In this document: piece after piece, positions 16,754 through 59,045 of the stretch | Layout of the letters: the number at the start of each line of letters is the position of its first letter | Position numbering within the stretch: position 1 is the first letter of the stretch | Assembly (NCBI GenBank): GCA_902786265.1 | Contig: CADACE010000028.1 | Location: 1-64,000 of the forward strand | Source of the DNA: an uncultured Chloroflexota bacterium | GTDB lineage: Bacteria; Chloroflexota; Anaerolineae; Anaerolineales; Anaerolineaceae | Length of the DNA: 64,000 nucleotides | Direction of reading: 5' to 3' | Notes under the pieces: generated by a model | The model's database searches: none | Told to the model about the DNA's origin: nothing | The model's input: the letters and a program-made list of their open reading frames with translations, nothing else | Program-made: the position numbers and the translations under genes

Positions 16754-16754
16754 G

Positions 16755-16836
16755 TGCGCTGGGGGGGAATCGAACCCCCACGGCTTGCGCCACATGGCCC
16801 TCAACCATGCCTGTCTGCCAGTTCCAGCACCAGCGC
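16755..16836 (-). tRNA. tRNA-Leu (GAG anticodon)
   Basis: The minus strand folds as a class II tRNA: acceptor GCGCTGG with CCAGCGC and discriminator A; U8-G9; D-arm with AACTGGCAGA; anticodon stem CATGG/CCATG with loop TTGAGGG (anticodon GAG, reading CUC); a long variable arm; and T-arm GGGGG-TTCGATT-CCCCC. The 3' CCA is not encoded. It is 82 nt long, with its own consensus promoter and terminator. Confidence 0.95.
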
Positions 16837-46977: not shown

Positions 46978-46989
46978 CTGTTGTCAAGG

Positions 46990-47060
46990 CTGGGATACGT
47001 GGATTCGAACCACGATGGACGGATTCAAAGTCCGTTGCTCTGCCATTGAACTATATCCCA
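46990..47060 (-). tRNA. tRNA-Gln (TTG anticodon)
   Basis: The minus strand folds as a normal tRNA: acceptor TGGGATA/TATCCCA with discriminator G, D-arm with TTCAATGGCAGA, anticodon stem ACGGA/TCCGT with loop CTTTGAA (anticodon TTG), and T-arm CGTGG-TTCGAAT-CCACG. It is 71 nt, without encoded CCA. Confidence 0.95.
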
Positions 47061-47907: not shown

Positions 47908-48909
47908 TTATTTTTTCCGGAAAGAGAAAAACAGCCCCGGAATACAGACACCGACCAGGATCCACCCGACAGTACGCTTCCAGGATGCCGTACGATCCAG
48001 CAGCCGGCTGAAATCCGGAGCCGGAAGTTTTCCGCCCGCTGTCGGCAGAGGATTGATGACGATATTCGGATCTGCCGTAAAAGTAGGTCGGGGCGTTGAC
48101 GTCGGCGGAACCGGTGTTTTTGTCGGTGTCGGCGTCGGTGTAAGCGTAAAAGTCGGCTCAATGACCAAAACCTGTCCTTCCATGATCACAACGGGAGTCG
48201 TATCGCTCAGTTTTATATTATTGCGGATGGAAAGCGTATACCAGTCCAATCCATATGCCAGCGCGATTTCCGAAAAAGTCTCCCCTTCCTGAACGACATG
48301 ATAAACGCCGCCGTCGGGGTTTGCTGTCGATGTCATAAACGGCACAGGGGAAGGAGTCACGGAAATGGTCGGTTTCGGCGTCCGGTAATCATAGGTAGGC
48401 CGCGTCATCGAATAATCCAGCGAACCGTCATCCAAACCCGCTATTGTCAAAACGATATAGCGATGCTTATCCGGCGCGTCCCCGATCCCGATACCGATCT
48501 GCCGCAGCGCCGGGTCAAAAATCACCCGGACAGATGCCTGCGACGGACGCAAAACGTTTTCGATCAGGTAATCAATATCCGTATCCACCCAGACCATCGC
48601 ATTTGTCTCGCGAATTGAAAAAGCCTTGTCACCGCCATATCCGGCGTCAACAGCCCGTTCGCGAACTGTCTCACCTGCCGGACCGCCGCTTTGCAGCATG
48701 CCAATTTCGGCAAGAAATTCCGCCTGATGCTGCGCAGCTGTTTCCAGATGATCGTCAAATACCAGTGTCCCGCAGCCATAATGCTTACGCAGGACGTTCA
48801 ATTGTTCCAAAAGACCTTCGCGGAAACTGTCATTCTCATCCGCAAAAACCACCGTGCAGGCGGTCAGCAAAGCAGCGAAAATGAGGAAAAAGAGGATCAG
48901 CCGACGCAT
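47908..48909 (-). CDS. CAP-domain protein with LysM, Thr/Pro linker and C-terminal membrane anchor (possible lipoprotein)
   Basis: A 333-residue exported protein. The signal segment LILFFLIFAALLTACTVV has a lipobox-like LTAC. Residues of about 30-170 form a CAP/SCP-like domain (LLEQLNVLRKHYGCGTLVF, FLAEIGMLQSGG). A LysM domain follows (YHVVQEGETFSEIALAYGLDW). Then come a TPTPTPTKTPVPPTSTP linker and a final helix, WILVGVCIPGLFFSF, with a basic RKK end. LysM binds peptidoglycan-type glycans, so the protein should sit on the wall side. The start at 48909 is preferred; earlier in-frame codons overlap the upstream gene. It probably forms an operon with the paralogue at 48930. Confidence 0.82.
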   Translation of the reverse strand: MRRLILFFLIFAALLTACTVVFADENDSFREGLLEQLNVLRKHYGCGTLVFDDHLETAAQHQAEFLAEIGMLQSGGPAGETVRERAVDAGYGGDKAFSIRETNAMVWVDTDIDYLIENVLRPSQASVRVIFDPALRQIGIGIGDAPDKHRYIVLTIAGLDDGSLDYSMTRPTYDYRTPKPTISVTPSPVPFMTSTANPDGGVYHVVQEGETFSEIALAYGLDWYTLSIRNNIKLSDTTPVVIMEGQVLVIEPTFTLTPTPTPTKTPVPPTSTPRPTFTADPNIVINPLPTAGGKLPAPDFSRLLDRTASWKRTVGWILVGVCIPGLFFSFRKK

Positions 48910-48929
48910 TTTATGCCTAACGATGCCTG

Positions 48930-49880
48930 CTATTTCTTCCGGATAAAGCCAAAATAGAGGGTGCCAAGCAATCCTAGACCGCATACGATCACCAAAACCA
49001 GCCCAAGCGTCCGCGCACCCGGTGTATCAAAAAACCGGATGTGAGGGATCAGCGGCTCAGGTGTCGGCGTATTTGTCGGAGTAGGCGTCAGCGTCGGAAG
49101 CGGGATCGGTGTATTCGTCGCCGTAGATGTCGGTTTCGGCGTATTTGTCGCAGGCAGCGGTGTTATGGTCGGAGTGAAAGTCGGTTCTACCGTGTTTCCG
49201 ACATACAGGATCAGGATCCTCTGTCCGATCGAAACAGATGTATCGTCTTCCTCCATACCGTTCAGCGCCTGGATCTCCGCAACCGTCATGTTGTAGGTGA
49301 GCGCGATCGACCAGAGCGTTTCATTGGAGCGCACCGTATGATAGATCGATCCATCAGGCATGGGCGTCGCGGTTGAGATCTCATCAGGCCGCACCAGGGC
49401 TGAATCCGGGTCTATGGGTCTCTGATATTCGTTGACCGTATTCAAAGAGATCAATCCGGTTTCCGCGCCGGTACTATTCACCATCAACGTATAATAGGAA
49501 TTCCCCTCAGACTGAGCATACCCTGCGCCGATTGTCCCATCGGCCAAACCTATCATCGTAAACCGATGCAGATCGTCCGTCCACATGGAATTCACGCAGT
49601 ATGAAGCATTGACGCCGATACCGCCGCAGACATTTTCCGTCCGCGCGGATGTACCGGAACCATCCGGCCGATCATGGGTCGTCATATGCACAGAGGCTTG
49701 ATAATCCGATTGCTGCTGGGCCAGGCTCATCAGCGTTCCATCCACCGTATAAGGGGAAAGCCCATAGGAGGCACGCAGCGAATTCACTTCATTAATCAGC
49801 GCTTCCGCAGACTGCGCGGATACACGCAATGGGAGAAACAGAAAAACAAACAGGATCGCGAGACGAAAATAATGCTTCAT
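48930..49880 (-). CDS. CAP-domain protein with LysM, Thr/Pro linker and C-terminal membrane anchor
   Basis: A 316-residue paralogue of the next gene. It has signal peptide LAILFVFLFLPLRVSA, a CAP domain (ALINEVNSLRASYGLSPY, LAQQQSDYQASVHMTTHDRP with a His as in SCP proteins, ENVCGG), LysM (YHTVRSNETLWSIALTYNM), a long TPTPTNTPTP linker and a C-terminal helix with RKK. The Thr/Pro linkers are characteristic of Anaerolineae surface proteins. It lacks the lipobox of its neighbour. A TATAAT on the minus strand (49894-49889) is only 8 bases before the ATG, so the transcript may be nearly leaderless. Confidence 0.83.
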   Translation of the reverse strand: MKHYFRLAILFVFLFLPLRVSAQSAEALINEVNSLRASYGLSPYTVDGTLMSLAQQQSDYQASVHMTTHDRPDGSGTSARTENVCGGIGVNASYCVNSMWTDDLHRFTMIGLADGTIGAGYAQSEGNSYYTLMVNSTGAETGLISLNTVNEYQRPIDPDSALVRPDEISTATPMPDGSIYHTVRSNETLWSIALTYNMTVAEIQALNGMEEDDTSVSIGQRILILYVGNTVEPTFTPTITPLPATNTPKPTSTATNTPIPLPTLTPTPTNTPTPEPLIPHIRFFDTPGARTLGLVLVIVCGLGLLGTLYFGFIRKK

Positions 49881-51089: not shown

Positions 51090-51110
51090 TCTCAGCTAAC
51101 CTTAAAGAAA

Positions 51111-51139
51111 AACTGCCGCAGAAATCCGCGGCAGTTTTT
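51111..51139. terminator. bidirectional intrinsic terminator
   Basis: ACTGCCGC and GCGGCAGT form an 8-bp GC-rich stem with an 8-nt loop, with A-runs on the left and T-runs on the right. It can end galM on the plus strand and the convergent M24 gene on the minus strand. Confidence 0.85.
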
Positions 51140-51155
51140 TAAATACCAAATTATC

Positions 51156-52337
51156 TCAGAATGTATAAGCAGCTGTATACGGATAGTCCCAGTTTTCGTA
51201 CCAGCCCACAATTTTACAGCCGTCTTCCGTAATAAACAGGGTATCCTTGGTAATATACATCTCACTGACACCGGTATGATACCGGGCGGCAAGCGAGAGG
51301 ACAACCACCATATTCTTTTCCAGAACCGTATCGTCCGCGGCGGAAATAAAAGGCGGCTCAAAAGGTGTAACGCCGATACCATGTCCAAAGCCATACTCTT
51401 CGGCGATATGTACACCCATTTCAATTGCTTTCTGATTGATGGCGGCGAAAATCTCTTTCGCGGCAACGCCGGGGCGAATCTGGGAACAGGCGAATTTCCT
51501 CAGCTCGGTCATTTTTCCCGCAAAGAATTTTTGGTTGGAATTCATCGCACTTTTGACCATCATGCGGGAATCATTTGCCCAATAGCCATCCAATTGCGCG
51601 CACATTTCCAAACGGATAAATTTTCCTTCAAAGAAATTGCCGTCGCGTCCGACCGCGTAATAAGGGGCATGAGGCCAGAGAACTGCCGCATCATCTTCAG
51701 AAACGGCCTGAGCCACGGCACGGTAGCCGTGGACCGGGACGCCCCGCTCCAGTGTATGAAAACGGATCGATTCCGTCAGGCTCTTTTCACTGGAAACACC
51801 GTTGCGGGAAATATGGTGGATCGCCGCGGCAATGCCGTGATCCGTGCGGGAAGCAGCATCTTCCAGGATCCTCATTTCAACCGGACTTTTCACCTGACGC
51901 AGCCGGCTGAATTCATCCGAAATATCAGCGAAAGAAAAACCGGGAAGCTGCTTCATCAGTTTTTCAAAAAACCGCTGCGTCATTTCATCCCCGATATAGC
52001 CAAGCGTTCCGTGAACACCTTCGAATAATTCGGAAATAAAAGCTGCCGAGATCTTTACCGCAGCCAATTCCGTATCGATACTGTTGGCGTAAGTAATAAT
52101 GCTGTCATGCCAACCGGCATTCTGATAAGCTGAAGCAAGCACTTTCGGGCAGGCGATGAAGCGTTTCTCAGCGCTGAAAAAAGCGATGACACAAAGGTGC
52201 CTCACACTCGCGAGTCTCTGAAAATTCAAACCGGTCACATAAGCAAGGTTTGCCGGATCAGTGATCACAACGCCGTCTATTTCAGGCAAAGCGTTGATAA
52301 ACTGATTGATTTTTGTAATATTACCCTTTGAAGACAT
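51156..52337 (-). CDS. M24 (pita-bread) family protein with degenerate metal site, copy B
   Basis: A 393-residue homologue of Xaa-Pro peptidase/creatinase, with an N-terminal creatinase-like domain (GVVITDPANLAYVTGLNF) and a C-terminal pita-bread fold. The histidine in GFGHGIG is kept, but of the five usual metal ligands the others read E, N, S and K: LEMCAQLDGYWANDSR in place of DxG...DxTR, VVVLSLAAR where an E is expected, and TKDTLFITEDG where an ED pair is expected. It is therefore unlikely to be a normal dimetal peptidase. A non-metal hydrolase like creatinase, or a binding protein, is possible. AAGGTGG precedes the ATG. It is the second gene of the pair. Confidence 0.8.
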   Translation of the reverse strand: MSSKGNITKINQFINALPEIDGVVITDPANLAYVTGLNFQRLASVRHLCVIAFFSAEKRFIACPKVLASAYQNAGWHDSIITYANSIDTELAAVKISAAFISELFEGVHGTLGYIGDEMTQRFFEKLMKQLPGFSFADISDEFSRLRQVKSPVEMRILEDAASRTDHGIAAAIHHISRNGVSSEKSLTESIRFHTLERGVPVHGYRAVAQAVSEDDAAVLWPHAPYYAVGRDGNFFEGKFIRLEMCAQLDGYWANDSRMMVKSAMNSNQKFFAGKMTELRKFACSQIRPGVAAKEIFAAINQKAIEMGVHIAEEYGFGHGIGVTPFEPPFISAADDTVLEKNMVVVLSLAARYHTGVSEMYITKDTLFITEDGCKIVGWYENWDYPYTAAYTF

Positions 52338-52347
52338 AATTCCACCT

Positions 52348-53511
52348 TTAATGTACCGATTGTATGCCGTTGATCAAATACATCGTATCCCAGCTGCGAA
52401 AATCGCTGAGGTTCCGGTTTCCTTCCGGAGTCAAACTGTAAATATCGATTGAATGAATGATCTCATCCTTGCTTCCGATCGTTTTGACATCCAGCGCGAC
52501 CACCATACCGGCCTGCAGAATTTCTTCATTATCCCGGCAAAGGATCGGCATTTCATATTCGGATGTACCGATACCATGGCCAAAACCTTCATCATAAAGC
52601 AGGTCAATTTCTTCCTCTTCCGCTTTCAGCCGCATTGCCTCGCAAAAATCGCAGACACGGATCCCGGGTTTCAGAATGGAAACAGCGAATTTTTTGAGCA
52701 GCACATTTTTGGCATAAGCATCGAGCGTTTTTTGATCCGGTTTTCCCGCAAAAAACATCCGGCTGCATTTTGTCCAATATGATTTATAAGTCAGCGTGTA
52801 ATCAATACGGACACTTTTTCCTTCCTTGGCAAAGGATAAATCATAAATCGGTGTATACCACGAACGTCCCTTGCGCCCCTGACAAATATTCAGATAACCG
52901 ATCCAATTCGCACCGAATTCTATCGCATTCGCCCTTACACGTTCCAAAAATTCCGAAAGTGTGCATTTACCGAGTCCGATCGTACCTTCAACATGATTTA
53001 ATGCACCGATAAGACCGCGGTCCGCGATTTGAGCTGCGGCATGGATACACTCGATCTCATCCTCTGTTTTGATTTCACGGATCTTGTCAATTACCGGATC
53101 CAGATCCATGATCGCCATCATCGGGCAGTTTTCTTTCAAAAAGGATAATTCAGCTACTGTCCATACGGAATAATCAACAGCTGCCTTTTTCCCGCAAATC
53201 TCAGTTTTTTCTATTACATCGCAAAGGGCTTTGCAAAATGCCTCATGGGGAGAGCCCTCATTGAGCGTATAAACCTTTGTTTTCCCTTTCCATGAAAAAG
53301 ACTTAGGGATGCTTTCCCATTCCGCGGGAACGATCAGCGTATAGTACGGATTATCCCTGCTGCCCACCAGAGCTGCGGAAAACGGAGACTGGTCCGGGAA
53401 AGGGAATGTGATCCCAATGAGATACGCAATATTTGCAGGAGATTTTATTATGAAAGCATCGAAATCATTATTCGTGCTTATGAGGGTTTCTACACGATTT
53501 TTTCTTCTCAT
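52348..53511 (-). CDS. M24 (pita-bread) family protein with degenerate metal site, copy A
   Basis: A 387-residue M24 homologue in tandem with the next gene, 10 bp apart. It has the N-terminal domain (DAFIIKSPANIAYLIGI) and the pita-bread half with GFGHGIG. Metal-ligand positions read D (VRIDYTLTY), K (WTKCSR), H (GHGIG), D (VVALDVKTIG) and I (IDIYSLTPEG), so at least two essential ligands are missing. Both copies also lost the second histidine near H-E-x-P (YEMP and FEPP here). The two proteins may form a heterodimer. AGGA lies upstream of the ATG. The 170 bp upstream is AT-rich. Confidence 0.8.
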   Translation of the reverse strand: MRRKNRVETLISTNNDFDAFIIKSPANIAYLIGITFPFPDQSPFSAALVGSRDNPYYTLIVPAEWESIPKSFSWKGKTKVYTLNEGSPHEAFCKALCDVIEKTEICGKKAAVDYSVWTVAELSFLKENCPMMAIMDLDPVIDKIREIKTEDEIECIHAAAQIADRGLIGALNHVEGTIGLGKCTLSEFLERVRANAIEFGANWIGYLNICQGRKGRSWYTPIYDLSFAKEGKSVRIDYTLTYKSYWTKCSRMFFAGKPDQKTLDAYAKNVLLKKFAVSILKPGIRVCDFCEAMRLKAEEEEIDLLYDEGFGHGIGTSEYEMPILCRDNEEILQAGMVVALDVKTIGSKDEIIHSIDIYSLTPEGNRNLSDFRSWDTMYLINGIQSVH

Positions 53512-53687
53512 ACAGGGTCCTATTAATCAACAAACCGACTGCACCTGGCCATTCCGAAATTGCATGGCTTCAAAATAAATAAAAAAAACGACTTATAAAG
53601 CCCGTATTTTTCTCTGTTTATTATATCAGTTGAAATTATTTTCTCCGGTTAAGTATGAATTAAGTATTATCCTTTCAATTAAATCGG

Positions 53688-54524
53688 TCAAAAATTGACA
53701 GCTTCAGGCTCATCTTCTGAGAATGATTCAGGAGAGAATAACCCCGCCTGCCAGATATCCTCCGATAACTCCGGAGGTTCTTCCTGCGGTATTTCCTCTT
53801 CCTGAAAAGAAACATCCGGCTCAGTGAAACAAAACGTACGGTAAGCACAAAACCGGCAGTGACGTGTGTTCTGTGTCCGCGGATAATCCGATTCATCAAC
53901 GGAGGACATTTCCCGCGCTCTTGTTTTGATCCAGGTCATATCACGCTGATACTCTTCCTCCGAATACGGCAGCCGGATCTCCCGGTCCGGATATTCCGGA
54001 AACCAGTAAACCATTTCGATATTTTCAGCCGGGACAGCATGCAGCCCTGCACCGATCAAACGGGAAGCACAGGATCGTGCCAGAAAACGATAAAGTTTCG
54101 TCTGGGGAGCGTTCTGATATTTTTCCTTCTCAGGGCGGGCAGATCCTGTTTTCCAGTCATAAATCGTCAGCCGGTCATCATTCACCGTCAAGGCATCAAA
54201 TTTTCCCAGCCATAAAATATCGGAAAAAAGAACGGAAACCTCTTTTTCCGCGAATACCTGCTCCGGACTGCCCAACGGCTGCACGGAACAATAAACATCA
54301 AGCCAGCGCCTGACATTTTCATCTTTTTCGGGAACGATCAGGGATCCCACCGGAAAACCAAGGATCAGCTGCCTGACAAGCAGGTGAAAATCATCACCCT
54401 GACGGACATTTTTGCTTTCGCCCGCTTCGATCGGCCAGACCAGCTTCCGCACATTCCGCAGGTAATAAAAATACCTGCAGCGTTCATACGCGGAAATTTG
54501 AGTTTGGGTCAATATCTTCATCAT
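53688..54524 (-). CDS. PD-(D/E)XK nuclease of the RecB/Cas4-like family with Fe-S cysteines
   Basis: A 278-residue nuclease. The active-site run is DFHLLVRQL, then KFDALTVNDDRLTIYDWKTG (D and D-x-K) and QTKLYRFL. One N-terminal cysteine (C16, YERCRYF) and three at the C-terminus (HCRFCAYRTFC) match the four cysteines that hold a [4Fe-4S] cluster in AddB and Cas4-type nucleases. An acidic tail follows. The gene starts one base after the stop of the UvrD-like helicase gene and completes a helicase-helicase-nuclease operon. No CRISPR array or cas genes are in the window, so a role in end processing is favoured over adaptation. Confidence 0.85.
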   Translation of the reverse strand: MMKILTQTQISAYERCRYFYYLRNVRKLVWPIEAGESKNVRQGDDFHLLVRQLILGFPVGSLIVPEKDENVRRWLDVYCSVQPLGSPEQVFAEKEVSVLFSDILWLGKFDALTVNDDRLTIYDWKTGSARPEKEKYQNAPQTKLYRFLARSCASRLIGAGLHAVPAENIEMVYWFPEYPDREIRLPYSEEEYQRDMTWIKTRAREMSSVDESDYPRTQNTRHCRFCAYRTFCFTEPDVSFQEEEIPQEEPPELSEDIWQAGLFSPESFSEDEPEAVNF

Positions 54525-54525
54525 T

Positions 54526-56784
54526 TTAATGATTCCATGTCTGCCGCAGTTTCATCACGACATTTGCTTCCGTGGTATTTCCATAACGGCCGCTGTTGCA
54601 GGAAACATACAGGCCTCTTTTAGCCCGCGTGATCCCGACATAAAGCAGGCGCAGACGTTCTTTGACACTGTCCAGCCAGGCTTCCCGGCTTCCTTCCCCG
54701 CGATGATACTGCAGACCCGAATCCGGCAGGGAAACCACTTTCAGCGCCTGCAGAATTTCCGCCTGCAGGTCCAGATTATCACGTACATAACGCGGCTTAT
54801 AGCGGCGGTTGTTATATTGAGCCTCGCTGCCGTCCGGAAAATCATAAGCGTTGCAGCTTGTCAGAAACACCTGATCCCATTCGAGCCCTTTTGATTTATG
54901 GTACGTCGTAACAACGATCTTTCCCGGATAATCATTCGGGTCAAATTGAGAATCCGAACCGCGCAGCCCCGCATAAAGGTTGGCATTCGACGCAATTTTC
55001 CGCACCTCCGCTGCCATGGAACTGAGGTTCAGTTCCGGATTCAGCCGTACGATCTGCGCCAGGAGAATGCCGATCTGACCGGCACAGCAAAGATCTTCCG
55101 ATGTGGTAAACAGATCCTGCCCGATAAGAAGGATGAGCTGGTCGATCGGCAGAAACCGCCCCTCCAGCCAGCGTTTGAGAAAATAACGGAAGCGGAACAA
55201 TGTTTCCTTCAGAATTTCATCCGCCTCGAAGCTGTCCAGCACCTTCTGCAGACCGTCATCAGTCATCGGATAAAACAGATCCTCCGGATGCTCCAGATTC
55301 TCCAAAAAGGCAATGGTTTTCGCCTGGTCGGCTTCCGTCAGATAGAATTCACCCTTTTCCCTTTCATTGTAAAGGATCCGGAACAGGGAGACGCAATACT
55401 TGCGGTTCAGCGGAACGGAAAGCCAGTCAAGGACCGCCGCGATCACATCGGCAGACGCTCGCGCCTTTTTCGTACTTTTGAGCACTTCGACCACTTCCAC
55501 CGGAAAATCTTCCAGCCGGGTCACAAATTCTTTCCCGTAATCATTGCCGGGGGTAAGAATAGCGACCGTCTCATTCGGATGAGCCTGCACGTGTTTGACT
55601 GCCAGCCGGCTGACGGTATCGATCTCTTCACGCGTCGAATAGATCTGCGGATCATAGATGATACGGGAAGGGTCATCGGGCGGGTTTCCCTGTTTGTCAT
55701 CAGGACGGGTGAGACGGACATAAGTCGGTGCCAGTCCATTGCGGCAGGCAGGATTGGGATGAGAAGCGACGACATAATTCACCAGACGGTTAGCCTGCGC
55801 CAGGATGCTGCGCTGCGACCTGCCGGCTGTTTCCATCGGGACGTTCATATCCGCTTTTTCAATAAAATCCCGCAGATATTTCGGATTGGCGGTGGTAAAA
55901 GTCTCGTTGATTGCCTGGTTCGGATCTCCCACCCGCACCCAGTTGCCGCTTTTGGCTGTCAGCAGCCGCAAAACCTGTTCCTGGATCAGGGAGCTGTCCT
56001 GTGCTTCATCCTCAAGAATATACGGCCAGCGGTTCTGCAGATAAGCCAGGTAACCGGGATCTGAGGCTAATAACCTGTAGGCATAAAACATCAGGTCGGC
56101 AAAATCCATGGCAGGGTAATTACGCAGCTGAGTCTGATAGAACCCGTAAATTTCACAGACCATCTCCAGCAAAGGGCGAACAAAACGGTCATCCGTCAAT
56201 TCCAGGTTTTTCCGCAGTTCTTCCGGCGTAATATGATAATCCTTTGCCTGTGAGATCACATTGCGGACGATATCCGTCACATCATCCCGCCATCTGTCAC
56301 GGTAAAACTCATCCTGTTTTTCCGGCCTGTAGCCGGGATTGATCACCAGGTCAAAAATGTTCCGCCCATCCTCCATAAGCCAAAGATCGACTGCCCGCTG
56401 AAGCAGGACCTCAGAACCGGTTTCATCCAGGACCACAAAATCATCCTCGATCCCCAGCTGCTGGGTATGGCCGCGGATAATATCCAAAGCCATGCTGTGA
56501 AGTGTGCAGACCTTATAACCGATCCCCGGGAGCAAACCCCGTTCTGCCAGAAAACCCGCGATGCGGGCGGAAAAATTCAATGCGGCGGCATTGGAAAAAG
56601 TCACGATCAGGATCTCCTGATCCGGCTCCGGTGTTGCGGAATTGCGGACAAGCTTTTCGATCAGGTCCGCGGCCAGCGCGGAAAGCGTAAATGTTTTTCC
56701 GCTTCCCGGTACAGCCGAAATTCCCATCGTCCCGCCGGTGTAGGAAAGCACCTTCTGCTGTTCTTCACGCGGAGTGAAAGGCAT
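54526..56784 (-). CDS. UvrD/PcrA-type superfamily 1 helicase
   Basis: A 752-residue ATP-dependent 3'-5' helicase. It has a Q motif and Walker A (FTPREEQQKVL, GSGKT at 27-31), motif Ia VTFSNAAALNFS, motif II ILEDEAQDSS, motif III WVRVGDPNQAI, motif V TTYHKSKGLEWDQVF and motif VI LLYVGITRAKRG. All catalytic motifs look intact. Unlike AddA it carries no nuclease domain; the nuclease is the next gene. The start overlaps the previous stop by one base (TGATG). Its partner is the degenerate helicase upstream. Confidence 0.9.
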   Translation of the reverse strand: MPFTPREEQQKVLSYTGGTMGISAVPGSGKTFTLSALAADLIEKLVRNSATPEPDQEILIVTFSNAAALNFSARIAGFLAERGLLPGIGYKVCTLHSMALDIIRGHTQQLGIEDDFVVLDETGSEVLLQRAVDLWLMEDGRNIFDLVINPGYRPEKQDEFYRDRWRDDVTDIVRNVISQAKDYHITPEELRKNLELTDDRFVRPLLEMVCEIYGFYQTQLRNYPAMDFADLMFYAYRLLASDPGYLAYLQNRWPYILEDEAQDSSLIQEQVLRLLTAKSGNWVRVGDPNQAINETFTTANPKYLRDFIEKADMNVPMETAGRSQRSILAQANRLVNYVVASHPNPACRNGLAPTYVRLTRPDDKQGNPPDDPSRIIYDPQIYSTREEIDTVSRLAVKHVQAHPNETVAILTPGNDYGKEFVTRLEDFPVEVVEVLKSTKKARASADVIAAVLDWLSVPLNRKYCVSLFRILYNEREKGEFYLTEADQAKTIAFLENLEHPEDLFYPMTDDGLQKVLDSFEADEILKETLFRFRYFLKRWLEGRFLPIDQLILLIGQDLFTTSEDLCCAGQIGILLAQIVRLNPELNLSSMAAEVRKIASNANLYAGLRGSDSQFDPNDYPGKIVVTTYHKSKGLEWDQVFLTSCNAYDFPDGSEAQYNNRRYKPRYVRDNLDLQAEILQALKVVSLPDSGLQYHRGEGSREAWLDSVKERLRLLYVGITRAKRGLYVSCNSGRYGNTTEANVVMKLRQTWNH

Positions 56785-59045
56785 CAGTCACCTCCTTCCG
56801 GTTCAATAGGAATAACCGCGCCGGAGTCCCGAAGCAGTTTTTCGATTGGAGGCGCGTCCGTGACACCCGGATAGACCGCTTCCTCCTCCCGGAGTTCCTG
56901 AATAAATTCAACATCCGGATATGGTTCGGTGGGTTTGTCAAACTTGAACCGCCGCGTAAGGGTTGAGAAAAGATAGAGCAATTTTGATTTCTGCTCCATA
57001 CCAGCTTCACTCAGCTCACTCGCGTAAGCCCTGACCTGAACGCGGCAGCGCCGCAAAAGGCCCCGGATCTGCCGTGTCATATGTGAATCATTATAGGCCG
57101 AGGCCGTCAGCGCGTCCCATTTTTTCTCAGGCGGCCAGAAACGGCTCAGCACGGCGTCATTCGTCAGTTCACCGTAAAACCGTTCCCACCAGCGCGGAGC
57201 GCCGACATTCAGCCAGATTTGGTAATCCACGGGACGATCCATGGAAAGGTAAGCGGAGGTAAGGGAAATCAGGACCGTATTTTCCGGCTGGGCGTAAAGC
57301 TCTTCATAATATTTAGCATTGATCATCCCGAGACCGACCAGTTCAAAATAATCCGACCAGTCCGGACGGAAACCGGATCTGCACTTATTTTCGTCCAGAT
57401 AGTCCAGCACAGCCTTGTACTTTACCATGGAATCCACGACCTTGCGGATCCCGAGATTGGTTTCCGGATCGGTAATAAACCCTTCATGGATCAGCACATC
57501 GGTAAAAAACTCGGAGATGATACGATCCGGTGAAAGGGCTTTGTTCTTCCGCTGGTGCTCGATCCAGTTCCGCAGGATCTCAAACCGTGCAGCGATCTCA
57601 GCCGGAATGCGGCTCTTTTTCTCTTCGGAAAGCGAAGCGAAAGGCCGGATATCATACTCGATCGGGTTGGGATCATCATGCTTCCGTTCACGGAACATCC
57701 CGCCCACGATCAGCTGCCCGCGGATGGGATCCAGTCCTTCAATAAAGCACTGTGCCATCTGCACGATATCCAGCAGACGCACCTGCGTTCCCGGGATAGG
57801 TTTGACGAGCTGACACAATATCAGCAGGGAGCGCGTGACCCGCTCGTTCAGCAGCGGACGGGACGGCCGGTGCAGATAAACTTTGATTCCCTGTTCCCAC
57901 AAACCGCGCTCCATTTCCGTGTAGAGGACATCCGAAACCAGCGGCGCGAGGATGACGATATCCTTCGGAGCCACACCCTGTGTCCAGACCAGGTTTGCCA
58001 CATCGTTCACAGCCTTTTTGATCATCTCCGGGTAATTATGCCCGGACGCGAAACTGAAAGCGGAACGCGGGCTGACCGGCAGATCCCGGTTGGAAAGGGA
58101 AGGATCACTGATGACCTGCTCCATCGCCTGAATGGCGGGGCTGCTGACAAAAGACTGCTCAAATTCCATCTGCGCCGGGCAGAGATCGTGAAGCGTTTCC
58201 GCCGATAAGGGATCACAGCCCATAAAGCTGCGGAATCCGCCGTTCCGGTCTGTGATGAGCAGCATGGAACGGCAAAGCGGAGCGATCTCGCGGACAAAAT
58301 GGTGAGCGGCGGGAACCTCTTCCTCCAAGTTGTCAAAAACAAAATGGAGTTTTCTGTTTTCCAGCCAGCTGCGGAAAACAGGATGGGGAAGCAGATATTT
58401 CGTAAAGATTTCCAGCTGGAGGGAATAATCCAGCAGGTTATTCTCAAAACAGACCTTACGGTACAGCATACCGCATTCCTGTGCCTGGTCAAAAATGGGC
58501 AGAAGAGCCCCGTCACCGACCCAGCTTTCCTGCATCAAACCGGCATATTGTTCAAAAGGAATCTCGGCAGCGGCACATTTATGCATTGCCAGCATCACCT
58601 GGTTGAATACGCGGGAGGGAGAGGCTGTCAGCCCGTTGAAGTACCCGTCTTCCCGCCTGGAGCGGATCAGTTTCGCCATGATGATCTGAGCGGCTTCAAT
58701 GGTCAGGAACATGGGATAAGAATTTTTATTTTCAAAGTCCGTGTTCCCGGTGATCAGCGGCCAGAACAGCTTCAGGCTGCTTTGCACAAAGCTGTTATAG
58801 GTGGTGAGCTGCGGACGGATCCCCTCCCGGGAAAGCAGCTCCTGATAGGGTGTGTTATAGCTGCGGCCTGGTGTGAAAATAAGGATCTGCGGCCAGGCAT
58901 CGCTTTGTTCCATCAGGAAGCGCACCCGTTCTGCTGCCGCTGTACTTTTGCCGCATCCCGCGGGCCCTGTCAGCCATATCCTGCTGAAGGGATCCGCTTC
59001 GATCAGGTTTTTCTGCTGTCCCGAGAGTACGATACGCTCCGCCAC
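56784..59045 (-). CDS. AddB/SF1-like helicase subunit with only Walker A intact
   Basis: A 753-residue protein with a Walker A motif (WLTGPAGCGKST, 25-35). Motif II is eroded (FVFDNLEEEVPAAHHF), as in structural AddB-type subunits, and a motif-V-like ENTVLISLTSAYLSMDR lacks the GLE triad. No Fe-S nuclease domain is present; that function appears to be encoded separately two genes on. The start is a GTG directly after the uridine kinase stop, with GGAG upstream. With the active helicase and the nuclease it likely forms an AddAB/RecBCD-like break-processing machine. Confidence 0.75.
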   Translation of the reverse strand: MAERIVLSGQQKNLIEADPFSRIWLTGPAGCGKSTAAAERVRFLMEQSDAWPQILIFTPGRSYNTPYQELLSREGIRPQLTTYNSFVQSSLKLFWPLITGNTDFENKNSYPMFLTIEAAQIIMAKLIRSRREDGYFNGLTASPSRVFNQVMLAMHKCAAAEIPFEQYAGLMQESWVGDGALLPIFDQAQECGMLYRKVCFENNLLDYSLQLEIFTKYLLPHPVFRSWLENRKLHFVFDNLEEEVPAAHHFVREIAPLCRSMLLITDRNGGFRSFMGCDPLSAETLHDLCPAQMEFEQSFVSSPAIQAMEQVISDPSLSNRDLPVSPRSAFSFASGHNYPEMIKKAVNDVANLVWTQGVAPKDIVILAPLVSDVLYTEMERGLWEQGIKVYLHRPSRPLLNERVTRSLLILCQLVKPIPGTQVRLLDIVQMAQCFIEGLDPIRGQLIVGGMFRERKHDDPNPIEYDIRPFASLSEEKKSRIPAEIAARFEILRNWIEHQRKNKALSPDRIISEFFTDVLIHEGFITDPETNLGIRKVVDSMVKYKAVLDYLDENKCRSGFRPDWSDYFELVGLGMINAKYYEELYAQPENTVLISLTSAYLSMDRPVDYQIWLNVGAPRWWERFYGELTNDAVLSRFWPPEKKWDALTASAYNDSHMTRQIRGLLRRCRVQVRAYASELSEAGMEQKSKLLYLFSTLTRRFKFDKPTEPYPDVEFIQELREEEAVYPGVTDAPPIEKLLRDSGAVIPIEPEGGD

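Follow-up and report, generated by a model that had tools for sequence, protein, structure and literature searches.

A conserved tandem pair of M24-fold proteins without the canonical metal-ligand set in Anaerolineae

Described M24-fold proteins

In prolidase and aminopeptidase P of the M24B group (1PV9, 1WY2, and 4ZNG), the five metal-ligand positions, referred to here as columns 1 to 5, are occupied by D, D, H, E, and E. The fold is also used without this set. The ectoine hydrolase EutD/DoeA (TIGR02993; 6TWJ, 6TWK, and 6YO9) has the two-domain M24B fold with the ligands replaced, and the Sinorhizobium meliloti pSymB EutD, which scores 838.7 bits against the 613-bit cut-off, has E, P, Y, M, T in columns 1 to 5. 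We take the column-1 Glu to be catalytic in EutD. Since EutD has no ligand set and is still a hydrolase, it provides a precedent for a metal-ligand-free M24 hydrolase.

Creatinase (1CHM, 1KP0, and 7YTO) is a homodimer encoded by one gene, not by a gene pair. The Spt16 N-terminal domain and EBP1/PA2G4 are M24-fold pseudoenzymes in which the peptidase function has been lost; both are eukaryotic, have protein-binding roles and are without catabolic gene context. Creatinase, which shares the fold of the proteins described below, shows little metal dependence, as one creatinase kept >80% of its activity with EDTA (PMC7568399). For a PA2G4 homologue, see PMC3888471. Moreover, putative ectoine clusters of Thermodesulfobacteriota usually carry two eutD homologues (PMC13188858).

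The gene pair and its ligand columns

The window, i.e., the whole 64,000-nucleotide stretch of DNA analyzed here, carries two complete ORFs on the same strand, with A transcribed upstream of B (Table 1). Both proteins match Creatinase_N and Peptidase_M24 above the Pfam gathering scores, in keeping with an earlier sequence-only reading that had described tandem M24 genes separated by 10 bp, and the closest solved relatives of both by sequence are Pyrococcus prolidases. A perfect inverted repeat 3′ of B, AAAAACTGCCGC-GGATTTCT-GCGGCAGTTTTT, is a probable bidirectional terminator; it was read directly from the sequence and is absent from the output of the motif scan. The gap upstream of A probably contains its own promoter region. 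A galM-like gene adjoins the pair in the window and in two other genomes (G006 and G013; by eye), and probably also in G007. Other features in the window are included in Table 1.

Table 1. Features of the window (positions in the 64,000-nucleotide stretch)
Feature	Position	Strand	Remarks
Copy B	51156..52337	(-)	393 aa, ATG start, M24-fold protein, columns E,N,H,S,K
Copy A	52348..53511	(-)	387 aa, ATG start, M24-fold protein, columns D,K,H,D,I
A-B junction	52338..52347	(-)	10 bp
Inverted repeat	51108..51139	(-)	perfect; 3′ of B, before convergent galM; read from sequence
Gap upstream of A	53512..53687	(-)	176 bp; weak sigma-70-like match
B codon 244, GAA, Glu	51606..51608	(-)	ligand column 1; Glu also in the aligned EutD column
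B codon 255, Asn	51573..51575	(-)	ligand column 2
B codon 319, His	51381..51383	(-)	ligand column 3, within GHGIG
B codon 364, Lys	51246..51248	(-)	ligand column 5; invariant in 12/12 B proteins
A codon 312, His	52576..52578	(-)	ligand column 3; sole invariant ligand column of A
Three ORFs upstream of A	53688-59045	(-)	AddAB-type helicase-nuclease set by eye
Two adjacent ORFs	47908-49880	(-)	similarly built, each with a signal-like start, a linker rich in repeats and a hydrophobic stretch at the C terminus; resemble CAP/LysM surface proteins by eye
tRNA-Gln(ttg)	46988-47060	(-)	
tRNA-Leu(gag)	16754-16836	(-)	

The canonical M24 protein of the same genome (contig C1), which reads D, D, H, E, E, served as the reference for the five ligand columns. 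Aligned to this protein, B reads E244, N255, H319, S348, K364 and A reads D237, K248, H312, D341, I355. These are the letters given by the sequence-only reading, and identical columns were obtained in PDB alignments anchored on GHGxG, the GYW..SR stretch, the M-V strand and DT...T..G; for A and B the columns were assigned by sequence alignment, not from superposed side chains. The GHGIG motif is kept in both copies, as had been noted. That an alignment would restore the full ligand set is rejected, as the profile alignments of A and B show no such set. The aligned position of a candidate proton-shuttle His in B shifted between alignment runs.

Conservation at these columns differs between the two proteins. 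In the Flexilinea B proteins, E244, N255, H319, and K364 (columns 1, 2, 3, and 5) are all invariant, while column 4 varies (S, W, Q, and K). With the proteins of the distant Anaerolineae genome G326 added, giving 12 B proteins, H319 and K364 are still invariant and E244 is nearly so. Other conserved polar residues include E189, R192, and E197 in B, and E190, R193, and E198 in A. In G326, one pair reads D,D,H,D,K (52A) and E,D,H,D,K (52B), the other D,V,H,D,V (21A) and A,D,H,D,K (21B).

Column 5 is K, V, I, S, or T, but never Glu, across all A and B proteins, and by parsimony the loss of this Glu presumably preceded or closely followed the divergence of A and B. The replacement of the column-5 Glu in every member bears on whether a mononuclear metal site, with weak Xaa-Pro peptidase activity, survives in one of the proteins. 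The 52A protein still has D, D, H, D and could bind one metal, and A of the window retains D, H, D; however, B of the window has no canonical residue at columns 1, 2, and 4 either, and we consider this explanation very improbable. A ligand site that is broken across the whole clade, distant relatives included, supports the non-peptidase function that had been proposed for the pair. The routine annotation of M24 proteins is Xaa-Pro peptidase, a name that would be wrong for this conserved pair.

Other M24 proteins with altered columns were seen. Three proteins reading x,E,H,E,S (L090, G013:C211, 2976-4154; L087, G017:C86, 5922-7121; L153, 1015+) look, from their columns, like another non-canonical M24 group. 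At L087 (5922-8351), a D,D,H,E,E protein and a Y,E,H,E,S protein are encoded in tandem, next to luciferase-like and cysteine-synthase-like genes (by eye). An M24 protein on a Shinella plasmid (L133, 4417-5589) reads E,G,H,E,K, with columns 1 and 5 as in B.

Distribution, selection, and gene context

The genus sample comprised 14 Flexilinea genomes (F. flocculi TC1 belongs to this genus). The A-B pair is present in nine and absent from five, with identities to the window proteins within the genus of 39-81% for A and 45-87% for B. The genome of the window has a second pair on contig C14 (A 64% and B 71% identical), and G326 also has two pairs. With the score limit applied, a comparable match was found in no genome besides G326 in a class sample of 396 genomes, and only the window's own genome matched in a phylum sample of 400 genomes, where relatives outside the A/B clade nearly all read D,D,H,E,E. 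Phyla beyond Chloroflexota were covered by one pattern-based genome-contig scan and by a plasmid search. On plasmids the pair is rejected: the best tblastn matches there were generic M24 proteins, with at most about 28% identity over most of the query.

The order is A then B in every pair, and the spacing is 9-13 bp where measured, with a 4-bp overlap in one G326 pair. A and B form sister clades with support of 99/95 and 100/99, respectively; the stem that they share is 0.77 long and has 100/100 support. Their distance matrices correlate with r = 0.98, a value that linked inheritance alone would give likewise. The tree and the distribution reject a recent chance duplication in one genome. Collectively, the genetics argues well for a heteromer of A and B: their order and spacing are fixed, two genomes have two pairs each, the two genes are present or missing together, and the sister clades mirror each other. 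The heterodimer of the sequence-only reading gains from this, while the complex itself stays inferred.

Both genes are under strong purifying selection: wherever dS allowed an estimate, omega (dN/dS) lies at 0.035-0.082, and saturation affects several of the dS values. Loss of ligands in both proteins, and an A gene read in two frames in G012, where A and B lie on different contigs, could suggest decaying, functionless prolidase paralogues. The omega values already contradict this, the remaining copies have no internal stops and the pair has been retained over the long term, so that decay is hardly credible; pseudogenes were rejected on dN/dS together with the intact frames. The presence in 9 of the 14 genomes, the strong purifying selection and the invariance of B at four of five columns indicate that the pair is more than a product of chance.

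Some pairs lie in a catabolic gene cluster. On C14 it includes genes for a family-5 solute-binding protein, a MocR-type regulator, a PCC-domain protein, RidA and PhzF, then A and B, and then IorA, IorB, an Asp/Glu/hydantoin racemase, an aminotransferase, a CoA ligase with 4-hydroxybutyrate- and acetate-CoA ligases as relatives, and a glyoxalase-like protein; a carbamate kinase gene is at the edge of this stretch. That a second pair sits inside such a cluster, and that only B keeps a conserved set, goes beyond what had been read from the window. The PCC-RidA-PhzF start is common to the pairs of G009, G010, G011, and G012, and in the first three of these genomes B is followed by a Dpp/Nik-type importer (the G009 solute-binding protein and one permease were checked, the others assigned by eye). 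Most of the C14 content recurs around one distant G326 pair, which is followed by a Dpp/Nik-type importer, IorAB, a racemase, a glyoxalase-like protein, a CoA ligase, a molybdenum hydroxylase, and an aminotransferase. The racemase gene (G326:C52:15394-16107) is 66% identical to that of C14 and has one in-frame TGA.

EnuR, which regulates ectoine genes and is of the MocR type, responds to the EutD product (PMC8739950); by analogy only, the MocR-type neighbor of the C14 pair gives a hint of an inducer that resembles an amino acid. No eutE-like gene was recognized near the window pair or the operon-borne pairs by eye and family scan.

The pairs of the window, G005, G006, G007, and G013 are outside any such cluster. 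In the latter four genomes the PCC protein and the racemase have no match, and PhzF has weak matches only, in three of the four. Since these four genomes have no PCC protein, close PhzF, or racemase, the cluster does not define the role of the stand-alone pairs.

This context can also be read as two separate homodimeric metal-free enzymes that catalyze consecutive steps on one compound and are adjacent through co-expression. Canonical-ligand M24 pairs in other Anaerolineae, sometimes split by transporter genes (G345, L127), would fit, as would the usual two eutD homologues of the Thermodesulfobacteriota clusters (PMC13188858). However, A and B are without exception immediate neighbors and reappear together as a unit, and A is invariant only at the His among the ligand columns, though it has other conserved polar residues. 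We regard two homodimers as an unlikely but serious alternative to the heteromer.

Canonical-ligand M24 genes, some in tandem, also lie beside Dpp-type importers at L126, L129, L130 (G158), and L127 (G345), with threonine-dehydratase-like and ornithine-cyclodeaminase-like neighbors by eye. These loci recall the putative ectoine clusters with two eutD genes (PMC13188858).

Predicted fold, possible role, and comparison with known systems

The AlphaFold models, built from small alignments, are moderate (pLDDT 67.5 for B and 63.1 for A, and <50 in the His loop) and weakest around the pocket, but suffice for assignment of the predicted fold. The B model matches creatinases with Z scores of 32.5-32.8 (7YTO_B: Z 32.8, 364 residues, 3.4 Å), EutD with 31.1, prolidases with about 28-31, and Spt16 N-terminal domains with about 27-29. 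Foldseek likewise places creatinase, EutD and prolidase nearest to A and B. The comparison with creatinase made from the sequence was hence a reasonable one, with creatinases at the head of the list, yet EutD and the prolidases follow within about 2 Z; on such a model, gaps of 1-2 Z do not choose between the matched families. Judged from the aligned columns, the column-1 Glu of B would point at least as much to EutD as to an amidinohydrolase.

The presence of Spt16 among the structural matches, the broken ligand sets in both proteins, and the persistence of stand-alone pairs without pathway genes raise the possibility of a non-catalytic pseudoenzyme pair with a binding role, toward a small ligand or a partner protein, on the fold that Spt16 and EBP1 also use. 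The invariant polar set in the pocket columns of B, as expected of a catalyst, and the location of the operon-borne pairs among catabolic enzymes and importers argue against it, and a purely binding role also appears unlikely.

The explanation that we tentatively prefer, at just short of an even chance, is that A and B form a metal-independent two-subunit protein of the M24 fold, with B as the likely catalyst and A as the likely pseudo-subunit. In this scenario, the dinuclear metal center would no longer be used, and B would act on a small, imported, amino-acid-derived compound (an amidine, guanidino, ureido, or cyclic imide compound) by acid-base or covalent catalysis through Glu244, His319, and Lys364 in the old metal pocket. 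Glu244 would parallel the EutD Glu, and the charge of Lys364 may replace the lost metal. A would pair with B as in the M24B "embracing" dimer and shape the pocket. Where the pathway genes are present, we infer that the product would undergo racemization, transamination, ferredoxin-dependent oxidation of the 2-oxoacid (IorAB) and conversion by the ADP-forming acyl-CoA ligase. Against this explanation count the variable column 4 of B, the D at columns 2 and 4 in the G326 B proteins, and the Ala at column 1 in one of these copies. A fuller form of it, an obligate hetero-oligomeric metal-free M24 enzyme that combines a catalytic with a pseudo-subunit and turns over an undescribed substrate within a conserved Anaerolineae cluster with IorAB and an ADP-forming acyl-CoA ligase at its end, is put forward with slightly more reserve. 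The pair offers a testable case in which a fold would have exchanged its metals for a different mechanism and at the same time split into two subunits. Moreover, the linked cluster may mark a so far unrecognized nutrient pathway of Chloroflexota from rumen and digesters, the cultured Flexilinea flocculi among them.

Compared with the known systems, A and B are closest by sequence to prolidase and aminopeptidase P (profile E 1e-21 to 1e-31), with which they have the domain order in common, but neither has the full D,D,H,E,E set. EutD resembles them in its replaced ligands, in E249, which is in the same column as E244 of B (A has Asp there), and in the MocR-type regulator that is also found beside operon-borne pairs. 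However, EutD is only about 19% identical to the B model and has neither the GHG His nor the Lys present in B, and against the two EutD NCBIfam models (cut-offs 613 and 575 bits) B scores 18.6 and 33.5 and A 32.0 and 25.5, far below both. Creatinases, the best structural matches for B, are about 15-17% identical and are likened to it by fold, not by active-site columns.

With respect to gene context, the two-eutD clusters of Thermodesulfobacteriota and Bacillota likewise combine two M24 homologues, a transporter and an aminotransferase in one catabolic cluster (PMC13188858); their homologues are filed as EutD, whereas A and B are far below the EutD models, and the clusters are likened by description only. 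In the limited literature covered, which makes this weak evidence, neither a heterodimeric M24 pseudoenzyme nor an account of this catabolic cluster was found. Two eutD homologues per cluster have already been published (PMC13188858), so that a tandem of M24 genes is no novelty in itself; apparently undescribed is a conserved pair with both sites broken and a conserved replacement set in only one member.
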